Shown here: one piece after another, positions 3,340 to 23,169 of the stretch
Position numbering within the stretch: the stretch's first letter is position 1
Layout of the letters: each line of letters starts with the position of its first letter
IMG/VR virus record: IMGVR_UViG_3300030419_003193
Location: 1-31,049 of that record
Source: a virus
Strand: one strand, 5' to 3'
DNA length: 31,049 nt
The notes under the pieces: model-generated
What the model was told of the DNA's origin: nothing
Seen by the model: only the letters and a program-made list of their open reading frames with translations
Database searches by the model: none
Program-made: the position numbers and the translations under genes

Positions 3340-4497
3340 CTAGTTATTGTTTTTGCATTTCTTATTTTTGCAGCATGATTTTTTAGTTAACTGTTTTAAT
3401 TTTAGTTTTAATGTCTCTATCTCTCTTAGAACATCCGCGTCTAGTGTAGTGTCTGAGTCTTGATATAGGCCTCTGCATTCTCCTTCAATTAAATCAAAGT
3501 CCTTTTGGCTAAAAGAGCCATCCTCGACAAAATGCTCTTTAATGGGCGATAGGTCCATGCCTAATTCTAAAAACTCTAGTATATAGTTTCTAACCTTGTT
3601 TTCTGCCGTTAGTTCATATCTAACACCGTCTGGTCTACCAAAACGATGTAGCCATCTTAGGAACGGCAAATATATCGTTTGTCTATCATTTGCTCTGTAT
3701 TTTTCGTGTATATAACATTCTTCCCCGCCAAAGCCTCTTGCGTGCTCGTTAAACTTGAGCCACGAGGCCTTTCTGGTGAGAAAAACGCCTAACCCTTGGG
3801 CAAAAACAGGGAAAGGGCAACTGCTTGGATCTCGCCCAACCTTTGAATACCCCTGATCCGATAGGGGTTTTTCATGTCCGTAAAATCCAATATCTTTAGG
3901 AAACTCTCTATTACAATATACACATTTATCTAATTTCTCTTGCTTTTCCAAGGAAAAGAAGGAAACCTTGTCATTCTCATTATGTATCGCAAAATTATAG
4001 CTTTCACACACACACTGCCAAGCAGAACCCCACTGACCCCACATGTGTCCTCCCCAAGTATCGTTAAAGTGGGTGGAAAAATTCATCAGGTCGTCGTGAA
4101 TCAGGGGGCCTGTATACAAATCATCTGATTTTGAATTGTATTCCAAAAAGCTAAATAATTTATCTAGGGTTTCTACAACCGGACAGAGTAATACATGACA
4201 ATCCATTACTAGTACAAAATTAGTTCTTGCTTCTTCTATAATTTTATTTCTAGCCGGTGAAGTTCCAATATCTTCTGTTAGGTCAATTACCTCTAAATTT
4301 CTAACTTTATTGCTGTAGTCCTTAAGCATCTGGGCGTGCTTACTGCCGGGGTCGTTTTCAACCACTAAGAACTTTATTCTTTGCAGAAGGTCATGTCTTC
4401 TGTTAAAAATGAGTTCTTTTCTAATGTCCTGAATTGTAAAGTACACCCCGTGATAGTCGTTGTGGTGTGCCATTCCGATAGTTAATGTTTGTTCCAT
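3340..4497 (-). CDS. Glycosyltransferase, GT-A fold, polypeptide-GalNAc-transferase-like
   Basis: This 385-aa protein has GT-A family features. SPARNKIIEEA (80-90) precedes a strand ending in VLVMDCH (95-101). That DxH (D99, H101) matches the metal-binding DxH of GT27 polypeptide GalNAc-transferases rather than the usual DxD. FGGEECYIHEKYR (256-268) followed by P278 and WLHRFGR (282-288) resembles the GT27 pattern of a GGE box, then P, then H-x-x-R. A CVYC pair sits at 192-195 and the C-terminus is a Cys/Lys tail (CCKNKKCKNNN). The start has a strong AGGAGAGG site. It lies 48 bases after a protein with long Thr runs and just before the large fibre, so a virion protein is the likely acceptor (inference). 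Family assignment is by motif only; another GT2-like specificity is possible. Confidence 0.75.
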   Translation of the reverse strand: MEQTLTIGMAHHNDYHGVYFTIQDIRKELIFNRRHDLLQRIKFLVVENDPGSKHAQMLKDYSNKVRNLEVIDLTEDIGTSPARNKIIEEARTNFVLVMDCHVLLCPVVETLDKLFSFLEYNSKSDDLYTGPLIHDDLMNFSTHFNDTWGGHMWGQWGSAWQCVCESYNFAIHNENDKVSFFSLEKQEKLDKCVYCNREFPKDIGFYGHEKPLSDQGYSKVGRDPSSCPFPVFAQGLGVFLTRKASWLKFNEHARGFGGEECYIHEKYRANDRQTIYLPFLRWLHRFGRPDGVRYELTAENKVRNYILEFLELGMDLSPIKEHFVEDGSFSQKDFDLIEGECRGLYQDSDTTLDADVLREIETLKLKLKQLTKKSCCKNKKCKNNN

Positions 4498-4545: not shown

Positions 4546-7146
4546 CTACGGTGGCGTCGTTGCGGGCTCTTCTTCATCGCCACCGGGACCACCACCGGGA
4601 TCGCCACCGGGATCACTGGTAGTAGTTGTGGTGGTCGTTGTGGTAGTTGTGGTGGTGTTACAGGGGTCTCCATCACAATTTAGTCCGCTGGACCACGTTC
4701 CTCCTAAAATACCACATTCTTCAGAGCTGTTGACAACACATGTGACAACGCCGTCTTCTACATAACAGCAGCGTCCGGTTGTTACACCCTCTCCCGGTGG
4801 CTCATCGTCGCCGCCCGGACCGCTAACGCATTCACCCTCTTCATTCCCTATGGTTGTTCCATCTGGGCAGCAGCAGCAGCACCCTTCAGGCTGGTGAAGA
4901 CAGTCCATGCTAACGACACTCCCATCTGGATAGCAACATGTAACCGCTCGGGCTTCTCGACAGTTACTATCACATGGGGGTGCAAAATCACCGCACTCGT
5001 CCGGACCAAGAGTGGTTGTGGTTGTGGTCGTGCAACAATTGCAGTCAAACCACGGATCGCATGGGGTAAACGGGTCGTTTGGTAACCACTCAAAATCTCC
5101 CCTTGTAGACTTAATAACAAGTCTATCGTCTATATCATAGGTTGGAGGAGAGGAACAAGATTGACCCGGAGCGTTGTCTTCAAATTCATGAGAAACCTCG
5201 ATGATACCGCATGTATCAGAGCCCCAAAAAACCTTCCACCTATCTTTGCTTGTACCTTCGTGATTACTATAGCAGAAAATCTTTATCCACCATGTGTCCC
5301 CACAGTCCGTTGTGCCTTCGCCTTTATAAACAGTGGGATTAAGCCCTGTACGGCAGGGGAAATCACCATCACCACTTTTAATAGAATCTTCTCTTTCTAT
5401 AAATGTTTCAAAATAGTGTACATCATTAGTATCACAAATGCCTCCATCGTCATTAGCTCCTAAATTTCCTAGAGGCCCTATGTAACACGGAGAACAATCT
5501 TGAGGGCAATCACGATACAAGTTTAGGGGAGTGCCACCTCTAGAAAGAGACACCTGAAATGTGTCCCCCGAAACGTTCACTGCATAATAACAAACGTTTT
5601 CAGCGAGTACTATAAAACAGCAGTCGAGAGAATCTTTACCATATTTGAAGACCTGCCCCTCCTCTAAACCGTGACCGGATATGGTAATGGTGTCGGCATC
5701 GGAATCAATGTCATGAAACGGGTTGAAGAAAAATCTTCTTATGTCTGACGTTCCGCTCAGTGGGCCGAACTCAATATCGCAAATAGAGCAGCCGCAGTCC
5801 TTTTTCCCGTGACAAAACTTAAAAGTTCCTGAAATTTCATCTGGGCAATTACAGTCTTCGGAAGGGCATGGGTCGCCCGAATAGATTTTTTCGGAACAGT
5901 TTGTCTCAGCACAGCTTGGGGAACCATCGCTTGTGTATTCTGTGAAAACCTTAACCCCGTCAGCACACCCGTCACCGCTCTCGTGAAAAGCTTCGTTGGT
6001 GCAATTTGCAGAATGTGCATTATCTTCGCATGAATAAGAATAATCGCCACCGCAACAATGCTTAGTGCAACAGGTTCCTAAACCGCACGGGTTTGCATAT
6101 TCACCACAGGGCTTTTCTAAAACCGTACCCCCTAAAGCTGTACACAATTCACTAGACAGATTGAGACAAGAATAATCACCAAACTCTTCAACACAACAAC
6201 CTTTATCTGGCTCCTCGGTGGTTGTTGTGGTAGTGCTTGTCGTCGTTGACGTAGTGGTAGTAGTGGTGGTCGTCGATGTGCATTCATTGCAGCTGACTAC
6301 CCCAACCCAGACATCCGTACAGTCAATATAATTAGTCTCCGGATCATACCCCGGATAATTGTACCTAAGTCGCTTATGGTTGACGGGGTCTAATACCCAG
6401 TAGTATTCGCCACCGGTATTGGGCCAGACGCAATTGCTGTTCGGGGATTGTCCGGGAGCAGTTCCCGTCTTTGTTGTTTCCAAGGTAGGGCAGCACCAAC
6501 TACCATATGAACAGTTGTGAAAAGCTATACCGTTTACATAATATATATGATTGCCGTCTAGAGACAAGTCGTATAGTACCGTGTCGAAGTCAGTTTCTGA
6601 GTCTTTTAGTTTAATTTCTTTTACCGGTTTTTTACCAGCTTCTGAAAATATGATATCTCCTACGTTAAGATTTCCCACAAAGTCTAATTCAGAATAAAGT
6701 TGTCTTGAAAGCTCAACTTCCAGCGATTTAAAGCCATCCTGAGTAATAATAGGATGATCGTAGCTAAAAAAGAAATCTGAGTTGTTTATGGAAGCCAGTC
6801 TTCTATTTCCGAGGATTGTTTTTTCTATGTGTACTACCGTGTTGACTTCGCCATTGATGGATTTTACCTTTTCACCAACGGCAACCTCAGATATTGACTT
6901 ATAAGAGCCATCACTCATTAAGACTTGCGATTCAGAGATGAAACAGGTCGGTGGAGGACCACTACAATCAATGGCAGAGCAAAGAGTGCTGGGAGAATGG
7001 ACACCACCGGGTCTTGACAAGCAGTCGTTTACTTCTACATCATCTTCGCAGGTTCTAGACCATTCAGTAAGCCCGTAGCAGCAAGCACCGGGAGGAGGTG
7101 GAGGTGGGGGAGTTACTAATCCGTCACACTGGCAGCACTGAGTCAT
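4546..7146 (-). CDS. Cys-rich, Thr-rich modular virion protein with embedded mini-intein (Hint) domain
   Basis: This protein has 866 aa and very many Cys, often in CC pairs. Three modules share the pattern G-x(0-1)-CC, C, C, GG, C, C (about 20-61, 315-354 and 791-829). Between the first module and CSYGSWCCP lies a complete-looking Hint domain, residues 68-211 (separate entry). Thr/Ser runs sit at 290-310, 706-712 and 831-843, like mucin linkers. Residues 480-545 hold a 'HGLEEGQVFKY ... YYAVNVSGDTFQVSLSRGGTP' domain of a type often seen in phage structural proteins. The C-terminus is Gly/Pro/Asp/Glu rich. AGGAGG five bases before ATG fixes the start. Role inferred: an exposed adhesin or fibre accessory. 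It has no signal peptide, so disulfides would form after lysis, or the Cys may bind metal. Confidence 0.8.
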   Translation of the reverse strand: MTQCCQCDGLVTPPPPPPPGACCYGLTEWSRTCEDDVEVNDCLSRPGGVHSPSTLCSAIDCSGPPPTCFISESQVLMSDGSYKSISEVAVGEKVKSINGEVNTVVHIEKTILGNRRLASINNSDFFFSYDHPIITQDGFKSLEVELSRQLYSELDFVGNLNVGDIIFSEAGKKPVKEIKLKDSETDFDTVLYDLSLDGNHIYYVNGIAFHNCSYGSWCCPTLETTKTGTAPGQSPNSNCVWPNTGGEYYWVLDPVNHKRLRYNYPGYDPETNYIDCTDVWVGVVSCNECTSTTTTTTTTSTTTSTTTTTTEEPDKGCCVEEFGDYSCLNLSSELCTALGGTVLEKPCGEYANPCGLGTCCTKHCCGGDYSYSCEDNAHSANCTNEAFHESGDGCADGVKVFTEYTSDGSPSCAETNCSEKIYSGDPCPSEDCNCPDEISGTFKFCHGKKDCGCSICDIEFGPLSGTSDIRRFFFNPFHDIDSDADTITISGHGLEEGQVFKYGKDSLDCCFIVLAENVCYYAVNVSGDTFQVSLSRGGTPLNLYRDCPQDCSPCYIGPLGNLGANDDGGICDTNDVHYFETFIEREDSIKSGDGDFPCRTGLNPTVYKGEGTTDCGDTWWIKIFCYSNHEGTSKDRWKVFWGSDTCGIIEVSHEFEDNAPGQSCSSPPTYDIDDRLVIKSTRGDFEWLPNDPFTPCDPWFDCNCCTTTTTTTLGPDECGDFAPPCDSNCREARAVTCCYPDGSVVSMDCLHQPEGCCCCCPDGTTIGNEEGECVSGPGGDDEPPGEGVTTGRCCYVEDGVVTCVVNSSEECGILGGTWSSGLNCDGDPCNTTTTTTTTTTTTTSDPGGDPGGGPGGDEEEPATTPP
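4618..4656 (-). repeat. Poly-Thr linker 3 (mucin-like)
   Basis: Residues 831-843 are thirteen Thr after the third GxCC module and before the Gly/Pro/Asp/Glu tail. The mixed ACN codons read as a run of gtggt/tgtgg on the plus strand. Confidence 0.85.
5011..5031 (-). repeat. Poly-Thr linker 2 (mucin-like)
   Basis: Residues 706-712 are seven Thr directly after a CNCC end, again with mixed ACN codons. The run separates the central domain from the C-terminal Cys modules. Confidence 0.75.
6217..6279 (-). repeat. Poly-Thr/Ser linker 1 (mucin-like)
   Basis: Residues 290-310 are almost all Thr with a few Ser, written with mixed ACN codons, so the run is kept at protein level and is not a simple DNA homopolymer. 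It joins two Cys-rich modules. Confidence 0.85.
6514..6945 (-). other. Mini-intein / Hint domain inside the Cys-rich protein
   Basis: The domain is 144 residues (68-211 of the host protein). All hallmark positions are present: Cys1 in CFISESQVLMSDGSYKSI (block A), SYDHPIITQDG (block B, with the block-B Thr replaced by Ser), and YDLSLDGNHIYYVNGIAFHN (block F/G) ending in His-Asn, followed at once by Cys as the +1 nucleophile. No LAGLIDADG or HNH endonuclease is inserted. Splicing would join GPPPT to CSYGSWCC. A bacterial-intein-like domain that cleaves or crosslinks rather than splices is the main alternative. Confidence 0.88.
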
Positions 7147-7155
7147 GAACGCCTC

Positions 7156-9900
7156 CTAACTAGTGCCGGAGCAGCTTACATAAATCGGTCTGTGTTCACC
7201 ATTAACCATCATGGTTATTACATAGGCGGCACCACCTACAGCACCCGGCCCGTGAATGTTTAGTGTTGTATCCCTAGATGTTACTAGTAAGAGTCTATCG
7301 TCAAGGAAGCCATTTTCATAACTTCTAGTACGCATCCAGCCGCTTACAGGAGATGTAAATGATGTTGGAGCATATATGTACTCAGTCATTATACCTTCGT
7401 GTGTACCGAACCAAGAGTCACATTTGGCGTCGGGTTCAGTTTGATGGTTAACATCCGGCCCGCCAGAGTTTCTCCTTATGAAAGACCCTGAAGAATTTAC
7501 CCTAGCCACACCGGACGTGTTATTTATCCACTTTTGAATATTAATATCCGTATGGCCTAGTGAGTAATTTGTGTCGGTGGTATGTCTTATGACCTCAAGC
7601 GGTGCACTTGGTGTCAGGGTAGCTTTACCTATTGATATACTCGGCGTTTTTGTATTACCGGCTATAGAGTTTTGAATATTAAGAGTATCAGACAATTCAC
7701 CGCTAGTATAAAGCAATCTCTGGTTATCGTCAAGACCGGCTACTAATTCAATATTTCTAGAACCACCTTCAGAATCAGAAATTTCTCCGCCTAAAGCGTG
7801 GGCACCAATACCAATGGAGTTGGGGTTGGTACTATTTTCTCCAGCACCCGGACCTATAAATATGGACTTGGTTGAAGAATCTGCATTTTTACCAGCAGAG
7901 CTACCTATAAATATGGCATTGTCGGTGTTAGACGCTGTATGCCCAGCCATATACCCAATGTAAGTGCACGCAGTGTCGCTAGAAAGGCTGCCGTTGGTTG
8001 TTGTAGAATCTAAACCAGCGTTGGTACCAATAAACACTCCGTGCTTCCAGCCTGTGGCGTTTGTGGCCACATCGCAACCGATGAAAACGGAATGAGAATT
8101 GAGAGCAGACTTTATTGTGTTGCCGGGGTTTGTGAATAGAGCGTTGCAATTATCAGAAAAACTTGCTGAACCTGCGGTTACGTAATTGCCTAACGCAGTC
8201 AAGCTCATCTTGCCTAATCCATCAGCAACGTCAACGGCAACGTAAGATTCATCAGCGACTATGGGGCTTGTTAGCTCAGAGGCAAGTTTTACATTATCAA
8301 AGTCTAAGCCTAGGTAATAACTGGTACCAATTAGCATTCTTTTGATGCCGGAGACCTCTAAACCGTAGTACTTTCTAAAGTTGGCAATTGAGTTAAGAGA
8401 TGTGCCGTCATTAAATCTAACGTCACCTAATACACGTAAATCACCACTTATGGATACTGTGGGTCTTTTAAAGGTTGGAGATTCCCAAGTTGGTGTTATG
8501 GGTATAAGACCGCTGGGGTCATAATCCATTAAAGTTTGGCTGTGACCAATAGAGTTTAAAAATCTCATGGACATCATTGATCTAGTCTGCAAGGTAGAGA
8601 CTTTGTCTTGACTACCAAAAGTCACCGTGTGTCTACTATTGTCAAACATATGACCTAAGTTATAATCGTAATCACCTTTTTCTACTGCGAACCTTGTATC
8701 TTCAGAGTCTGAAGCAAGAATTGCAACAGTTCTAGAGCTGCCTTTTAATTGGCCAGTTATCAAAGGGGTTTCTTGACCTACAGCAAATAAATAATCTGGA
8801 GGATAATTGTCCACATAAAGGTTGTTACCAATAATTATGGTATTGTTTACCATTTCTCTAGAATCCGATAGCGGATCTGAAAGGGTAAGGTTTTTATACC
8901 CAAGCACAATATTCCCATCGCTTGGCGAAGACTGCGTAAAGGAGTTTGATCCAACTATTGTATTTTGCTTGCCTTGTTTTAGACCGCTACCCGCATGATA
9001 TCCAATTATCGTATTATCTGATGACGCAGGTTTAAAGTCAATACCTACATCAATTCCATGCCCAAGGTAAGTATTTCTTAATGTTTTACTGGATTCACCT
9101 CTGGATCTGGGGGTATACCAACCGCCAAAAGTATTGCCATACTGGTTTCCGTAAAGATTCCCGTTTGTAGAATCAAGAGTACTAGCAACTAAGTTAAATT
9201 CGTTTCCTCCGTCGTCTGCAAAATATAAAGCTTGGGTTTGTGTGCCAACCTCGTATGGCTTTACATAGACTTTACCATAGTTTGTTGCCGCAAGAGGTGA
9301 ATCGGATTGCTCTCTGAGGGAAAGAGTTCCGCTTCTTTTTGGATATCCGCTTAAAGAAACTTGTAAGGCTGAGTTTGTGTCTATACCATTAAGAGACTGT
9401 AAAGATTGGCCATCTTGGTCTATTAAGCCTGCACCTCTAGAATTTATCGACCCGATTGCTGTAGTTCCGTTTTGGTGAACTAAAAAGCTTATTTCTTTAC
9501 CTACGTCGTGGGCTATAGAGTCTCCGGGTAGTCCATCAATTTCAATGGCGGCGGCATTTTCTCCTAATTTGGCTAATTCGTAAGAACGTTGAGAGTCTTT
9601 TTGATATGATATAACCATACCTGAAGAAGGCTGATTTCCATTTCCTAAAAGTTCTATTTTACTTCTTGATGTAGAAGAGTGTGTTGAAAATCTTGCCTCC
9701 AACTCAGAATCTGCCTGAACATTAAAAATAGTATCTGGTATAATCGGGGCGTCGTCTGCGTCTCGCTGTTTATTAGTTACACCAACAAGTCCAGACTGTG
9801 AAGGGTCTCCCACATTCCTTAAAATAGTTACGGCTTCATAAATCTCAGATTCAGAATTACCATTATCTACATGTATTGATAGTCTATCTTTTTTAGTCAT
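7156..9900 (-). CDS. Large fibre / virion protein with IG-rich repeats
   Basis: This is a 914-aa protein. Two blocks of short repeats resemble YadA-head-like trimeric beta-rolls. One block has NTIIGYHAGS, NTIVGSNSF and NIVLGYKNL (about 300-350). The other has VFIGCDVA, VFIGTNAG, TYIGYMAG, IFIGSSAG, IFIGPGAG and IGIGAHA (about 620-720). Between them, 'SISGDLRVLGDVRFNDGTSLNS' is a common fibre shaft element. The C-terminal domain ends VMVNGEHRPIYVSCSGTS-like and may be the receptor-facing head. It begins just after the 528-aa paralogue and stops 10 bases before the Cys-rich protein, consistent with one transcript. GAGG lies upstream of the ATG. Inferred role: long tail fibre or whisker. Confidence 0.8.
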   Translation of the reverse strand: MTKKDRLSIHVDNGNSESEIYEAVTILRNVGDPSQSGLVGVTNKQRDADDAPIIPDTIFNVQADSELEARFSTHSSTSRSKIELLGNGNQPSSGMVISYQKDSQRSYELAKLGENAAAIEIDGLPGDSIAHDVGKEISFLVHQNGTTAIGSINSRGAGLIDQDGQSLQSLNGIDTNSALQVSLSGYPKRSGTLSLREQSDSPLAATNYGKVYVKPYEVGTQTQALYFADDGGNEFNLVASTLDSTNGNLYGNQYGNTFGGWYTPRSRGESSKTLRNTYLGHGIDVGIDFKPASSDNTIIGYHAGSGLKQGKQNTIVGSNSFTQSSPSDGNIVLGYKNLTLSDPLSDSREMVNNTIIIGNNLYVDNYPPDYLFAVGQETPLITGQLKGSSRTVAILASDSEDTRFAVEKGDYDYNLGHMFDNSRHTVTFGSQDKVSTLQTRSMMSMRFLNSIGHSQTLMDYDPSGLIPITPTWESPTFKRPTVSISGDLRVLGDVRFNDGTSLNSIANFRKYYGLEVSGIKRMLIGTSYYLGLDFDNVKLASELTSPIVADESYVAVDVADGLGKMSLTALGNYVTAGSASFSDNCNALFTNPGNTIKSALNSHSVFIGCDVATNATGWKHGVFIGTNAGLDSTTTNGSLSSDTACTYIGYMAGHTASNTDNAIFIGSSAGKNADSSTKSIFIGPGAGENSTNPNSIGIGAHALGGEISDSEGGSRNIELVAGLDDNQRLLYTSGELSDTLNIQNSIAGNTKTPSISIGKATLTPSAPLEVIRHTTDTNYSLGHTDINIQKWINNTSGVARVNSSGSFIRRNSGGPDVNHQTEPDAKCDSWFGTHEGIMTEYIYAPTSFTSPVSGWMRTRSYENGFLDDRLLLVTSRDTTLNIHGPGAVGGAAYVITMMVNGEHRPIYVSCSGTS

Positions 9901-12138: not shown

Positions 12139-13146
12139 TTAGAAGGAGCCTAAAATAACTCTTCTGTTGTCCAATACACCAAAACCAAGTTCAGCCCAGC
12201 CGTAATAGCCAGCACGCTGTTGTCTGTGAAGAGCAGGGTCTTCAAAGACTTGCATAGCTTGCTTAACAGGCATAATAAAGCTGTCGTTAGCACCTTGATC
12301 GACACCAACAACCAACTCAAGGTCAGAAGTCTGAACAGAACCACCAAGACCGTCCGTGAAGAAGGTTTGATATTCCTGACTTTCTCCGAGTTCGTCGAGA
12401 TCATGAAGGTTTACACCAAAGATTCGGGTGATTGGGGCACCACCTTCGCTTGCAGTGTAGATTTCACGGCGAGTTACCTCGTCAACTTGGTCCAGACCCC
12501 AGTTGCGAACGTCTTCCAGAGCTTCTGGAGAAACGTAAAGGTCTGTAAGGCGACCGCGATTAGCGGAGCCAGTGTTACCGCCAGCATTTCTTCGCATGGT
12601 GGTTTGCATGAGAGAAACAAGTCTCTTGCTGAACATACCGGCGGTTGCGTCACCGTCGTATACCAAGATGTTTCGATCAACACCGGCAGCCAAAATGGTG
12701 TGCCATCCGTCATCGTTCATCTTCTTGGTAAAACCAGCTTCAAGAGCCTGCATCGCACGAGCTACAATATCCCAACGTGCTTCACGAGCATAACGAAGCA
12801 AGAAGTCAATCGAGCTAGTAATGCTGTAAGTTGGAATCGTTACGTAGTCGCTTTCAACGGCTCGTTCTGGAACACGACCGTGTCCGGGATTGGTGTAAGC
12901 TACATGCTCACCCTCAAGGCCCGGAGAAATTAGATCGAGAGGATACTCGGTAGAGGCACCCGGCTCGACGTTAATAGTTTCAAAAATATCACCAAGGATA
13001 TTTCCGACAAGAACACCTTTACGCAAAGGAAGTTCTAACGCTTTAGCGAATTCTCGCTGTGCAGCGTGTGCGACGTTTTGGTCGCTATCACCAGACTTCT
13101 TCAGAAGTCCGATAAATTCGTCACTAGGTCTTTCTGTATATGACAT
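12139..13146 (-). CDS. Major capsid protein (HK97-like fold inferred)
   Basis: This 335-aa protein has the properties of the shell subunit. It lies right after the protease/scaffold and decoration genes, has a strong AAGGAGA site, and is followed by a strong terminator. Internal features fit phage major capsid proteins: the stretch around VTIPTYSITSSIDFLLRYAREARWDIVARAMQALEAGFTKKM (an E-loop/spine-like helix region), an alpha-helical segment, then 'LYVSPEALEDVRNW' and a C-terminal 'RAGYYGWAELGFGVLDNRRVILGSF', which is the usual ending of this class. The fold call comes from context and these patterns, not from an alignment. The 237-aa frame on the opposite strand is a shadow. Confidence 0.88.
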   Translation of the reverse strand: MSYTERPSDEFIGLLKKSGDSDQNVAHAAQREFAKALELPLRKGVLVGNILGDIFETINVEPGASTEYPLDLISPGLEGEHVAYTNPGHGRVPERAVESDYVTIPTYSITSSIDFLLRYAREARWDIVARAMQALEAGFTKKMNDDGWHTILAAGVDRNILVYDGDATAGMFSKRLVSLMQTTMRRNAGGNTGSANRGRLTDLYVSPEALEDVRNWGLDQVDEVTRREIYTASEGGAPITRIFGVNLHDLDELGESQEYQTFFTDGLGGSVQTSDLELVVGVDQGANDSFIMPVKQAMQVFEDPALHRQQRAGYYGWAELGFGVLDNRRVILGSF

Positions 13147-17300: not shown

Positions 17301-19286
17301 TTAATAAATATCCTTCATAGAGTCTGTAAACCAGTTTGGACCGGAATACATATCACCCTTTTTTTCTGTTTTTTCCATTGTTGCGAAGCCACCGTAGAAG
17401 TTGTATATTGTAGCTTCTGGTAATCTTGCTAGAGTTCTAGCAGCCATGTTTGCCATAATAAGTGCGGAGTAACGGTCCTTTCTTTGTTTACCCTTTTTCC
17501 CAGTCCCAATGACAGTTTCTGGTGTATCCCATTTGTCTCGACCGCTGGCTGTCTGTGTTATCTGTATCATTGTTAACTCATCTTTAAGGTCTTCAATTTC
17601 TAAAACACATTGCTCTAATGTGTCAAAGACTCTACCTTTTAATCCGTCTTCCGCGTTTGACAATCCAAGGGTTATGGCATCAAACCTAGGAAACAGTATA
17701 GCCTTATCTTCGAAGTCTTTTCTTAATCCGTGGTTGGCTTCTGAAAGCCAGTCATACTTAGCGAACTGACACATTTCAAGTATGTGTAGACCCCTGTTAT
17801 CATCCGTGTCCTTAGCCTTGTCCTCGTCTATAACGGGCCATATGGCCACTTCTCCGTCTTCCAGCTTATCTGAGTCGTGTAAAGACTCCATAACTGCTAT
17901 ACCGCCCCCTTGTGCGTCCATGGCGATATGTATACAGGGATAGATCTTCATTAAGTCTCTTATTTTTCTAGCACAGTAGGCGTAGAAATCGCTTTCTGAA
18001 GAAAAGCCACTTTTAACCTTCTGTTTGTGTTCCGACCTGTTGGTTGTCCAGCAGTGAACTATTCTTCTGTGGTCGTGATTTACTTCTAATACAACAATGC
18101 TAAAATTATCAACCTCGGAGGCTGGGTCAACACCAAAAATATACTTCTTATTGGGATCTCCTCTCAGGCTGGCCTCAAAGACTATATCTTCACCCTTGCT
18201 ATCTTTGATAACTTTTGAATCATTTGAGCCATCGTTCGCTACGCACCCCTCTATGAGAGTACGCTTGAAAAACCCCTGAGAATCGCGGGTAAAACACGCA
18301 CCAAACTCCATCTGATAAATACCGGCATGTACCGTTGCTTTTGACCTAGCGACCTGTGAGGCGTCCATAAAGCCCTCTGGCAGAAGTTCGTAAGGAACTC
18401 TAATAATTGAGTAATCTCGCCAGTTGAAGTCTTTTGGTGCGTCTTCGCCAAAGATCTCCCTAAGCTTGTTTGGTCTTCCTTGACTTCTTATTATAGACTT
18501 CCACTTTTTCCAGTACTCTGCAAAGTGGTTAAAGTCATAATAGGCGGTACCGGAAAGGATGATTTGGTTGTTCTTTCTTTCTAGGATAGCGTCTGTCTCT
18601 TGTTCTATTTCTATTCCTAGTTCTATAGCTTTCTTGCGTGCTGCTATTTTTTTTACATTTTCTATGGGGTCTGAGCTAACGGCGGCAAAACCAGCAACAA
18701 CAGTTTCGAAGATGTCTCTAGGTATTGATGCAAACTCGTCGCTTATAATATCGTTTGCACGCTGACCACGAATTTTTTGCCCATCACCAAGTGGCAAACA
18801 AGTTACTCGGGAGCTATTGATACGCATGACACACCTGTCTACATCTCTTCTTGGCCCACTGTTAGAGTCGCACATGCTTCTCAAAATAGGTGCGTTATTC
18901 CAAATAGTCTCCATATACTCAAATAGAACTTTAGACTGCCTAAAAGCGGCACCGACTACTACAACTTTTCTTTCCGGTAAAAGTAAAGCTCTAATCATGG
19001 AATAGAGTGAAAGTATAAAAGACTTACCGAAACCACGGCTAGCTATTAACATTGGAAATCTTCTATTCCACATCTCGCATAAGAAGAGGGCTTGAGACGG
19101 CAATATATTTATATTAAAAACCTGCTTGCATAAAAAAGAGAAGTACTCAGGTCTAGTCATTAACCAAAGCATTTTGTAGTGGTAATCATCATCGTTGAAG
19201 TTAACGAAGGAAAATGGGTTAAAAAGACTGCTATTGTCTATATCTAGATTCAACCAAGCTTCGTCTATGTTTTTTAAGTTATTCAT
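17301..19286 (-). CDS. terL: Terminase large subunit
   Basis: The protein is 661 aa from ATG 19286. The ATPase part has Walker A ASRGFGKS (82-89), 'KVVVVGAAFRQSKVLFEYME' after it, and Walker B IISDE (180-184) followed by an aromatic-free arginine loop. The nuclease part has GVDPAS with D387 and IAMDAQGGG with D457, the metal-binding acids of the RNase H-like domain. It cuts concatemers and pumps DNA through the portal. The start chosen is ATG at 19286, which overlaps the previous stop (ATGAATAA), suggesting coupled translation. A longer reading would need a TTG at 19325 inside the previous gene and has no ribosome site. Confidence 0.93.
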   Translation of the reverse strand: MNNLKNIDEAWLNLDIDNSSLFNPFSFVNFNDDDYHYKMLWLMTRPEYFSFLCKQVFNINILPSQALFLCEMWNRRFPMLIASRGFGKSFILSLYSMIRALLLPERKVVVVGAAFRQSKVLFEYMETIWNNAPILRSMCDSNSGPRRDVDRCVMRINSSRVTCLPLGDGQKIRGQRANDIISDEFASIPRDIFETVVAGFAAVSSDPIENVKKIAARKKAIELGIEIEQETDAILERKNNQIILSGTAYYDFNHFAEYWKKWKSIIRSQGRPNKLREIFGEDAPKDFNWRDYSIIRVPYELLPEGFMDASQVARSKATVHAGIYQMEFGACFTRDSQGFFKRTLIEGCVANDGSNDSKVIKDSKGEDIVFEASLRGDPNKKYIFGVDPASEVDNFSIVVLEVNHDHRRIVHCWTTNRSEHKQKVKSGFSSESDFYAYCARKIRDLMKIYPCIHIAMDAQGGGIAVMESLHDSDKLEDGEVAIWPVIDEDKAKDTDDNRGLHILEMCQFAKYDWLSEANHGLRKDFEDKAILFPRFDAITLGLSNAEDGLKGRVFDTLEQCVLEIEDLKDELTMIQITQTASGRDKWDTPETVIGTGKKGKQRKDRYSALIMANMAARTLARLPEATIYNFYGGFATMEKTEKKGDMYSGPNWFTDSMKDIY

Positions 19287-19734
19287 ATTTTGTTTTAAAT
19301 AGGTGATCCGTCCAAAGAAAGACAACGCCGAAATTTTTTGCGGGTCTTTTGTGATGGTCTAAATGGTGTTTCTGTGCTCTTTTGTAATAATTAGTCTTTG
19401 TTATCCAGTGGTCTTCAAGGCCGTGTATTGCTCTGTGTACATGTGTCCAAGTATAAGAATGAAAATAAAAAATTAACAGTAAGCATAACATCGAGACTAA
19501 CCCATATCCAAAATAAGCAAAAGTTAAGAGCGGAGAGCCTACTATCAGATGCATATAAAATGGCAGATCTACGTTTAAATCGTTTCTGTTGTTTTTATGG
19601 TGCTCAATTGCGTGATGTCTCCATATCCATTCGGGAAGGAGTGTTCTTTTATGCATTGTGTATTTGTGTATAAAATACTCGCTAAAAGCCATTACAAGAT
19701 ACCAAACAGTTAACCAAATCAAAACCTCATACAT
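19279..19734 (-). CDS. Fatty-acid-hydroxylase / sterol-desaturase-like membrane protein
   Basis: The protein is 151 aa with His clusters typical of di-iron membrane hydroxylases: HKYTMH (23-28), HHAIEHH (40-46), HVHRAIH (98-104) and HHLDHH (123-128). Membrane segments run over about 3-22 and 60-92. The family (PF04116-like) uses two irons held by these His to hydroxylate or desaturate lipids or carotenoids. All expected His boxes are present in a short protein, so it may be active. It lies between ClpP-like and terL, has an AGGGG site, and its stop overlaps the terL start by eight bases. Substrate unknown; a lipid-changing auxiliary metabolic role is inference. Confidence 0.8.
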   Translation of the reverse strand: MYEVLIWLTVWYLVMAFSEYFIHKYTMHKRTLLPEWIWRHHAIEHHKNNRNDLNVDLPFYMHLIVGSPLLTFAYFGYGLVSMLCLLLIFYFHSYTWTHVHRAIHGLEDHWITKTNYYKRAQKHHLDHHKRPAKNFGVVFLWTDHLFKTKYE

Positions 19735-21427: not shown

Positions 21428-22420
21428 CTAAACCACTCTGTCATGGTCTACCATCATTTTAACTAGGTCTTCAAATGAGTGTCTTGGTGTCCATCCAAGT
21501 TTTTCAACAGCCTTGTCATTAAGACCTCTTAAATAATCCACTTCTGCTGGCCTATAGAATTCTGGATCAATAACCACATAATCACTCCAGTCTTCAATAT
21601 CCACATGTTTAAACGCTACGTCTAAGAACTCACGAATCGTATGAGTTTCTCCGGTGCAGATGACATAATCTTCTGGGCTATCCTGCTGTAGCATCATCCA
21701 CATCGCTTCCACGTAATCTCCCGCGTACCCCCAATCTCGGAATGCTTCCAAGTTGCCTAGACGTAGCTTTGGAAACTCTGGATCTCGTTCGCATTTCACG
21801 AAGTCTCCAATCCATTTTGTAATCTTTCTTGTGACAAATGTTTCACCTCTTCGCGGCCCTTCGTGATTGAATAAAATGCCAGCACTCGCGTGGAGGTCAT
21901 ATGCTTCACGAAAAAGTCTCGTCATATGGTGTGCGGCACATTTTGCTATAGCATAAGGACTCTGAGGTAAAAACTTTGTATCTTCGTTTTGAAATTTATT
22001 TTGGTCTCTATCTGTATCGTAATTCTTTCCATACATTTCGCTGGAACTTGCTTGGTAGAATCTGGCTTCTGACAATTTTAGATCTACCACCGCCTGTAGG
22101 ATATTTAAACAGCCCTTGCCTGTTATGTCCCAAGTCAGTCCGGGTTGCTTAAAAGACACTGCTACATGACTTTGTGCGGCTAAATTATAGATTTCATCTA
22201 CATCATCGTGTTCTTTTAGAATATTTATGACACTATGAGCATCGGTAATGTCGCCTTGAGCGAGATTAAAACTAGGATTTCCAAGAATATGTTTGATTCT
22301 TTCTGTGTTGTCTGTGCTGGCTCTTCTGCAAACACCCACTACTTCGTAGCCCTTGCCTAGTAATAGATCCGATAGGTGACTTCCGTCCTGACCTGTAACG
22401 CCAAAAATAATAGCTTTCAT
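21428..22420 (-). CDS. gmd: GDP-mannose 4,6-dehydratase
   Basis: The protein is 330 aa, close to family length (about 340-370). NADP-binding GVTGQDGSHL (7-16), SSSEMYG (125-131) with the Ser-Glu pair, and SPYAIAK (154-160) with Y156 and K160 are the Rossmann and catalytic motifs of short-chain-dehydrogenase-type Gmd. 'FNHEGPRRGETFVTRKI' is the nucleotide-sugar box. It turns GDP-mannose into GDP-4-keto-6-deoxymannose, the first step to GDP-fucose, GDP-rhamnose or GDP-perosamine. Its start overlaps the GT6 stop (ATGA). No fucose synthase (fcl) is seen, so the host must supply the next step or the keto sugar is used directly. Confidence 0.93.
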   Translation of the reverse strand: MKAIIFGVTGQDGSHLSDLLLGKGYEVVGVCRRASTDNTERIKHILGNPSFNLAQGDITDAHSVINILKEHDDVDEIYNLAAQSHVAVSFKQPGLTWDITGKGCLNILQAVVDLKLSEARFYQASSSEMYGKNYDTDRDQNKFQNEDTKFLPQSPYAIAKCAAHHMTRLFREAYDLHASAGILFNHEGPRRGETFVTRKITKWIGDFVKCERDPEFPKLRLGNLEAFRDWGYAGDYVEAMWMMLQQDSPEDYVICTGETHTIREFLDVAFKHVDIEDWSDYVVIDPEFYRPAEVDYLRGLNDKAVEKLGWTPRHSFEDLVKMMVDHDRVV

Positions 22421-23169
22421 ATTTGTTCCTCTATGTATTTCCCATTTAAAATGTTAAAAATTGAATCTTTGTTTTTTCTTATTAGTTCTTCTATCTCTAT
22501 GAACTTCACGTTCGGGTCTCTAAATATCTTGAGTCCGCCCTTGTGACTTATCTCGAATTGAAACTCTTTAGTCGAAATAATTTTCACTTCAAACTTGTTA
22601 AAGTAATAATTAATGTAACTTTCATCATTTACGGGTGCTTCGTATCCTAATGAGTGATCTAGATCCTGTCTTGCTTTTAGTTCTATACACATCTTTTTAA
22701 CAAGATCATATCGCCCCCCAAAAAATGCACCTAAGTAATAAGAGTACTTCTTACCTTCTTCATATGGAAGAAAACAGTTCGACTCTTCATTTTTCTCTAA
22801 AGGCATGTAATGAAATCCGGCATTTTGATACATAAAATGCTGACCCCCTACTAGGTCTCCAATAAACCAGTCACCAAACTTACGATTTACATTCGTATCT
22901 GCGTCAAAGTAGTATATATAATCGTGCTCTGGGATGGATAACATTGAGGTGAACTTGGAATTAGTTGCATCTGCCCAGTTATCGTGAGCCGCTTTGACCC
23001 AAACATAATCAGTATATTCTGGAAGAAAAGGTTTAGGATCTCTATCTGTGAAGAGGTAAAACCTATATAAGTTGTCTCCTGTATAAAAGTGAAAAAACCT
23101 GTTAATGAATCTAATAGCTAAAGTAAAATAAGCATTAGTCCCTATTAAACATATTGCAATACTTTTCAT
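22417..23169 (-). CDS. GT6-family glycosyltransferase (ABO-like)
   Basis: The protein is 250 aa. The match to GT6 (blood-group A/B and alpha-1,3-galactosyltransferase family) is by motif: IYYFDADTN (85-93), with DAD at 89-91 as the metal-binding DxD; YYLGAFFGG (144-152), against the family YYLGGFFGG; and NDESYINYYF (181-190), against HDESHLNKYF. 'PYEEGKKY' matches the family's IPKDEGDFY-like stretch. GT6 enzymes add Gal or GalNAc in alpha-1,3 linkage to a sugar acceptor. Most bacterial GT6 proteins have NxN in place of DxD, so DxD here is closer to the vertebrate and some phage members (from memory). The start overlaps the previous stop by one base (TAATG). Confidence 0.85.
   Translation of the reverse strand: MKSIAICLIGTNAYFTLAIRFINRFFHFYTGDNLYRFYLFTDRDPKPFLPEYTDYVWVKAAHDNWADATNSKFTSMLSIPEHDYIYYFDADTNVNRKFGDWFIGDLVGGQHFMYQNAGFHYMPLEKNEESNCFLPYEEGKKYSYYLGAFFGGRYDLVKKMCIELKARQDLDHSLGYEAPVNDESYINYYFNKFEVKIISTKEFQFEISHKGGLKIFRDPNVKFIEIEELIRKNKDSIFNILNGKYIEEQI

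Follow-up and report, generated by a model that had tools for sequence, protein, structure and literature searches.

The window analysed in this study, a stretch of 31,049 nucleotides of viral DNA (IMG/VR record IMGVR_UViG_3300030419_003193), carries on its reverse strand a gene for a modular, Cys/Thr-rich protein that is interrupted by a Hint domain. This domain is probably a class-1 cis-splicing mini-intein without an endonuclease, lodged in a protein of the surface type. Taken together, its residues, its predicted fold and the selection acting on it make splicing likely. A first-pass annotation of the same DNA had proposed a complete-looking mini-intein at 6514-6945. The coordinates proved exact (144 codons, starting with Cys68, ending with His210-Asn211 and followed by Cys212 at +1), and the proposal is borne out by the sequence, by the predicted fold and by splice residues that are invariant in 12 alleles.

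Results

The host protein is a precursor of 866 amino acids (4546..7146, minus strand) with 73 cysteines and several poly-Thr linkers, and every related contig has a homologue at this position. The N-extein (6946..7146, minus strand) consists of an MTQCCQCDG..PPPP tag, a first Cys module (GACC...C...C...C...C) and the linker SGPPPT, so that residue -1 is Thr67 (6946-6948, minus strand). The Hint is followed in 12/12 alleles by a C-extein module (6274..6513, minus strand) of the form C(+1)-S-Y-G-S-W-C-C ... C-x-x-C, after which comes a poly-Thr linker. As the first-pass annotation had it, the domain has Cys-rich modules on either side and is outside any enzyme active site; the host protein evolves fast. 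Pfam families other than those of the Hint clan gave no matches anywhere in the 866-aa protein, no PHROGs family matched the Cys-rich protein or the Hint, and no close relative of the Cys-rich protein, the capsid-type protein or the terminase was found among cultured phages.

Directly downstream, and outside the intein, lies a gene for a family-2 glycosyltransferase (3340..4497, minus strand; PF00535, E=3.4e-6), which adjoins the Cys-rich gene in every related contig that is long enough. The upstream neighbour, a gene for a fibre-like protein of 914 aa (7156..9900, minus strand), is kept in all related contigs. Moreover, the gene order of capsid-type, gp80-like, two fibre-like, Cys-rich and glycosyltransferase genes is common to all contigs tested, as far as each reaches. 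Judged solely by this place among fibre and head genes, the Cys/Thr-rich protein is probably exposed on the virion surface. The poly-Thr linkers are also a possible target for O-glycosylation by the downstream glycosyltransferase (3340-4497, minus strand), which would make the product a mucin-like phage surface protein.

In the Hint domain (6514..6945, minus strand; protein residues 68-211), the block A nucleophile, Cys1, is Cys68 (6943..6945, minus strand). Block B, FFFSYDHPII, contains the motif Ser-Tyr-Asp-His from Ser128 to His131 (6754..6765, minus strand). Block F, VLYDLSLDGNHIYYVNGIAFHN, follows the pattern YDL...DGNH, and its Asp is Asp193 of YDL (6568..6570, minus strand). The C-terminal end reads AFHN and is followed by Cys: block G is formed by the penultimate His210 and the terminal Asn211 (6514..6519, minus strand), and the second nucleophile, Cys212 (6511..6513, minus strand), is the +1 residue on the C-extein. 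The Hint fold, Cys1, block B, the block-F Asp, His-Asn and Cys+1, by which a class-1 mini-intein is recognised, are thus all present. The domain was also said to lack an endonuclease, and indeed none fits, the 140-144 aa of the alleles being wholly taken up by the Hint. The Ser that had been remarked on in place of the usual block-B Thr is there, but it does not mark a defect, as gp41-1 aligns a Ser at this position and five sister alleles carry Thr.

The profile search, proposed as a test that could refute the mini-intein, returned intein-family matches with the A/B/F geometry. The Pfam family Hom_end_hint matched with E=1.8e-7 and 31.8 bits, just under its cut-off of 32.1, PT-HINT with 1.9e-5 and the Hint family with 1.3e-4, and NCBIfam intein_Cterm (TIGR01443), which covers block G, scored 20.2, above its cut-off of 15.6. 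The best PDB match in sequence was the gp41-1 intein (phmmer, 4e-4; profile of nine alleles, 3.8e-8). By these comparisons, the assignment to the Hint domains is far beyond chance. A tblastn search of 84,980 bacterial and archaeal genomes found no relatives of this Hint.

The AlphaFold2 model of the Hint, built with nine alleles, reached a pLDDT of 89.8 and a pTM of 0.84. The best PDB match in fold was the Tetrahymena thermophila BUBL1 BIL2 domain (6y75; Z 19.2, with 140 residues superposed at an rmsd of 1.9 A), followed by the bacterial intein-like (BIL) domain of Clostridium thermocellum (2lwy; Z 16.4) and the gp41-1 intein (6qaz/6riz; Z 16.3). Many inteins (Foldseek and VIA-align, Z 12-16) and Hedgehog (14.8) came thereafter. 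Furthermore, the superpositions on the BIL domains and on gp41-1 span both splice junctions. In a model of the N-module, Hint and C-module together, the Hint was good and the C-module was unpredicted (pLDDT 34-52), so that disulfides cannot be judged from it. Foldseek searches against viral models found Hint domains in other uncultured phages as well, some of them in proteins whose annotation names collagen or fibronectin repeats; a Hint in phage proteins of structural type is therefore not unique to this phage group.

Scans of IMG/VR yielded 11 further Hint alleles at the same genome place (L001, L003, L004, L014, L017, L022, L031, L033, L037, L039 and L056, with L005 almost identical to L004), which makes 12 with the window. 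All 12 keep Thr or Ser at -1 before Cys1 (Thr in 11/12, Ser in 1/12), S/T-x-D-H in block B, the block-F Asp, and His-Asn followed by Cys(+1), down to about 48% Hint identity. The Hint directly follows the first Cys module in 11 alleles, and in L056 extra sequence stands between the two. The C-module profile did not score on L056 above Cys-preserving shuffles, and the C-module of this allele is identified by its Cys pattern and position only. In L037 (5737-11235), the homologue is 1,833 aa long, and a zinc metalloprotease of matrixin type (PF00413, E=1.6e-11) lies a short way past the point where the C-extein starts.

Cys+1 is invariant although the C-module in which it lies averages 25% identity. 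In 10 of the 11 complete alleles it is the odd cysteine of this module, a pattern which suggests, weakly since the alleles are related, that it is kept for chemistry and not for a disulfide.

The mean pairwise column identity among 11 alleles was 0.55 in the Hint, 0.49 in the N-flank and 0.25 in the C-module, and single pairwise comparisons gave identities of 63-76% for the Hint, 47-68% for the N-terminal part and 21-44% for the C-module. Between the window and L001, the Hint had a dN of 0.14 and a dS of about 2, giving a dN/dS of about 0.07, and the flanking modules changed faster. Judged from these alignments, conservation within the host protein is highest in the Hint, which is kept by selection. 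Since synonymous sites are saturated in the Hint and in both flanks (pS 0.63-0.93), selection and not recent transfer maintains the Hint, and recent horizontal transfer is ruled out as the source of its high identity.

A homologue without the Hint occurs in six or more relatives that share the gene order: L007 (L006 is the same protein), L008, L009, L010, L047 and L057. No Hint was found elsewhere in their contigs, which are fragments. In the Hint-bearing sister L022 the site reads ...CTGDPPT, Hint, C-module, TTT..., and in the Hint-less proteins it reads ...CNHYPPT-TTSTTTT... (L047) or ...CGVGDPT-TTTTTT... (L007). The Hint and the C-module are absent together in at least five of the six, and no clean one-step empty site is evident among the Hint-less relatives, most of which are without the C-module too. 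L010 was rejected as a clean empty site because the homology of its second module is weak (4/500 and 8/500 shuffles score as high); by this weak similarity, L010 may keep the C-module.

On a tree of six neighbouring genes, the Hint must have been gained or lost at least four times along supported branches, and five times on the best tree; narrower sampling had given at least two, and wider sampling raised the minimum to four. The groupings that have support in the Hint tree are found again in this neighbour-gene tree, and L039, the relative that diverges most, carries the Hint; the outgroup branch is long. Because the Hint tree matches the virus tree and L039 has the Hint, the simplest reading of the trees would be that the Hint is ancestral and was lost several times, its descent being consistent with vertical inheritance. 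Gain of the Hint at the same place by recombination is a possible alternative.

Discussion

If the mini-intein splices as its residues predict, the bond before Cys68 would undergo an N-S shift to a thioester, aided by Ser128 and His131 of block B and by Asp193 of block F, and the N-terminal module would then be transferred to Cys212. Asn211, aided by His210, would cyclise and the Hint would be released, after which an S-N shift would join the flanks as ...SGPPPT-CSYGSWCC..., leaving a spliced product with the joined junction ...SGPPPTCSYGSWCC.... These steps are established intein chemistry (PMC7765530). Retention of the domain would need no special benefit if selection preserves splicing because the host protein is useful. 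In particular, such 'hostage' selection can account for persistence without an endonuclease, as a mini-intein that did not splice would spoil the host protein. Splicing competence is predicted both by hostage selection and by a beneficial role.

Several findings count against cis-splicing. The host protein is hypervariable, no clean empty site is evident and the closest fold is that of a BIL. Inteins are rarely situated in hypervariable proteins, where BILs are typical (PMC2814812), and cleavage in place of splicing is frequent among BILs (PMC7765530). The Thr or Ser at -1, kept in all alleles for no evident reason, is to be counted on the same side. The Hint might accordingly act in the manner of a BIL, cleaving mainly at Asn211 and/or Cys68 and leaving the flanks unjoined, and so trim or diversify the surface protein. 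The nearest folds, the hypervariable setting in which BILs occur (PMC2814812, PMC7765530) and the joint absence of C-module and Hint in five or more of the six relatives that lack the Hint, as if they were one working unit, all agree with such autoprocessing. We nevertheless regard it as unlikely, for pure cleavage would not need the Cys+1 that is invariant in a poorly conserved module, and A-type BILs are without a conserved +1 nucleophile according to PMC7765530 and to the title of Dassa 2004 cited there.

The mini-intein may also have been domesticated for assembly of the virion surface, with the Hint and C-extein forming an ancestral, repeatedly lost cassette. This cassette, which redox conditions might control, would couple a conserved N-terminal virion anchor covalently, by splicing or ligation, to an adhesive region that is variable and rich in Cys and Thr. 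Such a role is conceivable and of low probability. The related idea of the first-pass annotation, that splicing could serve as a maturation switch, is weakened by the six or more related viruses that are without the Hint.

A thioester or branched intermediate that cross-links or caps chains during assembly, by transpeptidation to a thiol or an amine as in Hedgehog or BIL domains, is very improbable. A thioester is feasible with Cys1 and block B, and the host protein is Cys-rich and probably extracellular. However, the terminal Asn, the penultimate His and Cys+1 would be needless for N-terminal thioester capture alone, yet they are invariant, and the Hint-less relatives manage without the domain. 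The missing endonuclease and the many Hint-less relatives might also point to a decaying relic that is currently inactive; we give this little credence, as the splice residues are intact in 12/12 alleles, which rules out decay, and the Hint is better conserved than its flanks, with the low dN/dS noted above (about 0.07, window versus L001). Redox gating, in which Cys1 or Cys+1 would form disulfides with cysteines close by and these would hold or release splicing at assembly or lysis, has a cysteine before Cys1 in 11 tabulated alleles and the inhibition of the Mycobacterium smegmatis DnaB intein by a catalytic-cysteine disulfide (PMC6195587) in its favour, but is scarcely credible because that cysteine stands at varying distances (4, 5 or 7 residues) and cysteines are frequent throughout the protein.

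In a survey of InBase, every intein but one, a BIL, lay in a conserved region of its host protein (PMC2814812). The cis-splicing mini-intein favoured here has the full canonical splice set in the opposite setting, namely a hypervariable protein that is probably on the virion surface; it lacks an endonuclease, and its descent is consistent with vertical inheritance. This mini-intein in an unusual host protein is real and probably active. Close phages with and without the Hint, in the same gene order, offer a natural test of whether inteins can persist without homing, and the family supplies new mini-inteins of small size whose exteins are rich in Cys. In the open-access literature, the phage inteins found were borne by enzymes only (such as terminase, ribonucleotide reductase, DNA polymerase and dCTP deaminase), and searches there for an intein or Hint domain in a phage virion protein turned up no report, of this family or of any other.

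The capsid-type protein (window 12139-13146, minus strand) has at least 599 relatives in IMG/VR and no match among 50,697 cultured phage records, which indicates an abundant, uncultured phage group. The window also encodes, between the terminase and ClpP-like genes, a protein of the fatty-acid-hydroxylase family (19279-19734, minus strand; PF04116, E=1.2e-12). Furthermore, at 21428-23169 (minus strand) a GDP-mannose 4,6-dehydratase (E=1e-115) adjoins a family-6-type glycosyltransferase (PF03414, E=3.7e-12), a phage-encoded sugar modification.

With regard to known systems, a Hedgehog-type Hog/Hint is ruled out by the terminal His-Asn and by a C-extein of about 650 aa. A pretoxin HINT was likewise rejected, as PF07591 scored 25.4 bits against a gathering threshold of 27.7 and no toxin-domain family matched after the Hint. 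In Achromobacter phages JWF and 2-1, a Hint stands at the C-terminus of tail-fibre-type, probable virion proteins (L012 3077-4528 and L011 7065-8525 for JWF and 2-1). The protein of phage 2-1 has a Cys-rich sequence (CNCDCNCSC) before its Hint, but with neither a His-Asn end nor an equivalent C-extein it does not have a splicing layout. Another virus contig (L018 2783-4213) encodes a 477-aa protein with two Hints, the first ending in HN before a Ser and the second following shortly after, a possible tandem BIL/intein.

The inteins of the Lactobacillus phage Lb338-1 helicase and the Acinetobacter phage ME3 terminase match the Hint over its full length at 27-30% identity; unlike it, they are situated in enzymes of DNA metabolism or packaging. 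The gp41-1 intein shares with the present domain the Hint fold, the block-B Ser-x-x-His, the block-F Asp, the His-Asn end and the lack of an endonuclease, and it also has a +1 nucleophile. It stems from a split intein of another phage protein, whereas the present Hint is contiguous, has Cys at +1 and is housed by a hypervariable, Cys-rich protein that is not an enzyme. The BILs of C. thermocellum and T. thermophila are the closest in fold and resemble the Hint in size and in the His-Asn end, and placement in a variable modular protein is a further likeness (PMC2814812). A His-Asn end in a hypervariable protein is what an A-type BIL has, but since Cys+1 is invariant in 12/12 alleles the domain is not filed as one. 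By its residues, it is a class-1 mini-intein, and it stands between the inteins and the BIL domains.
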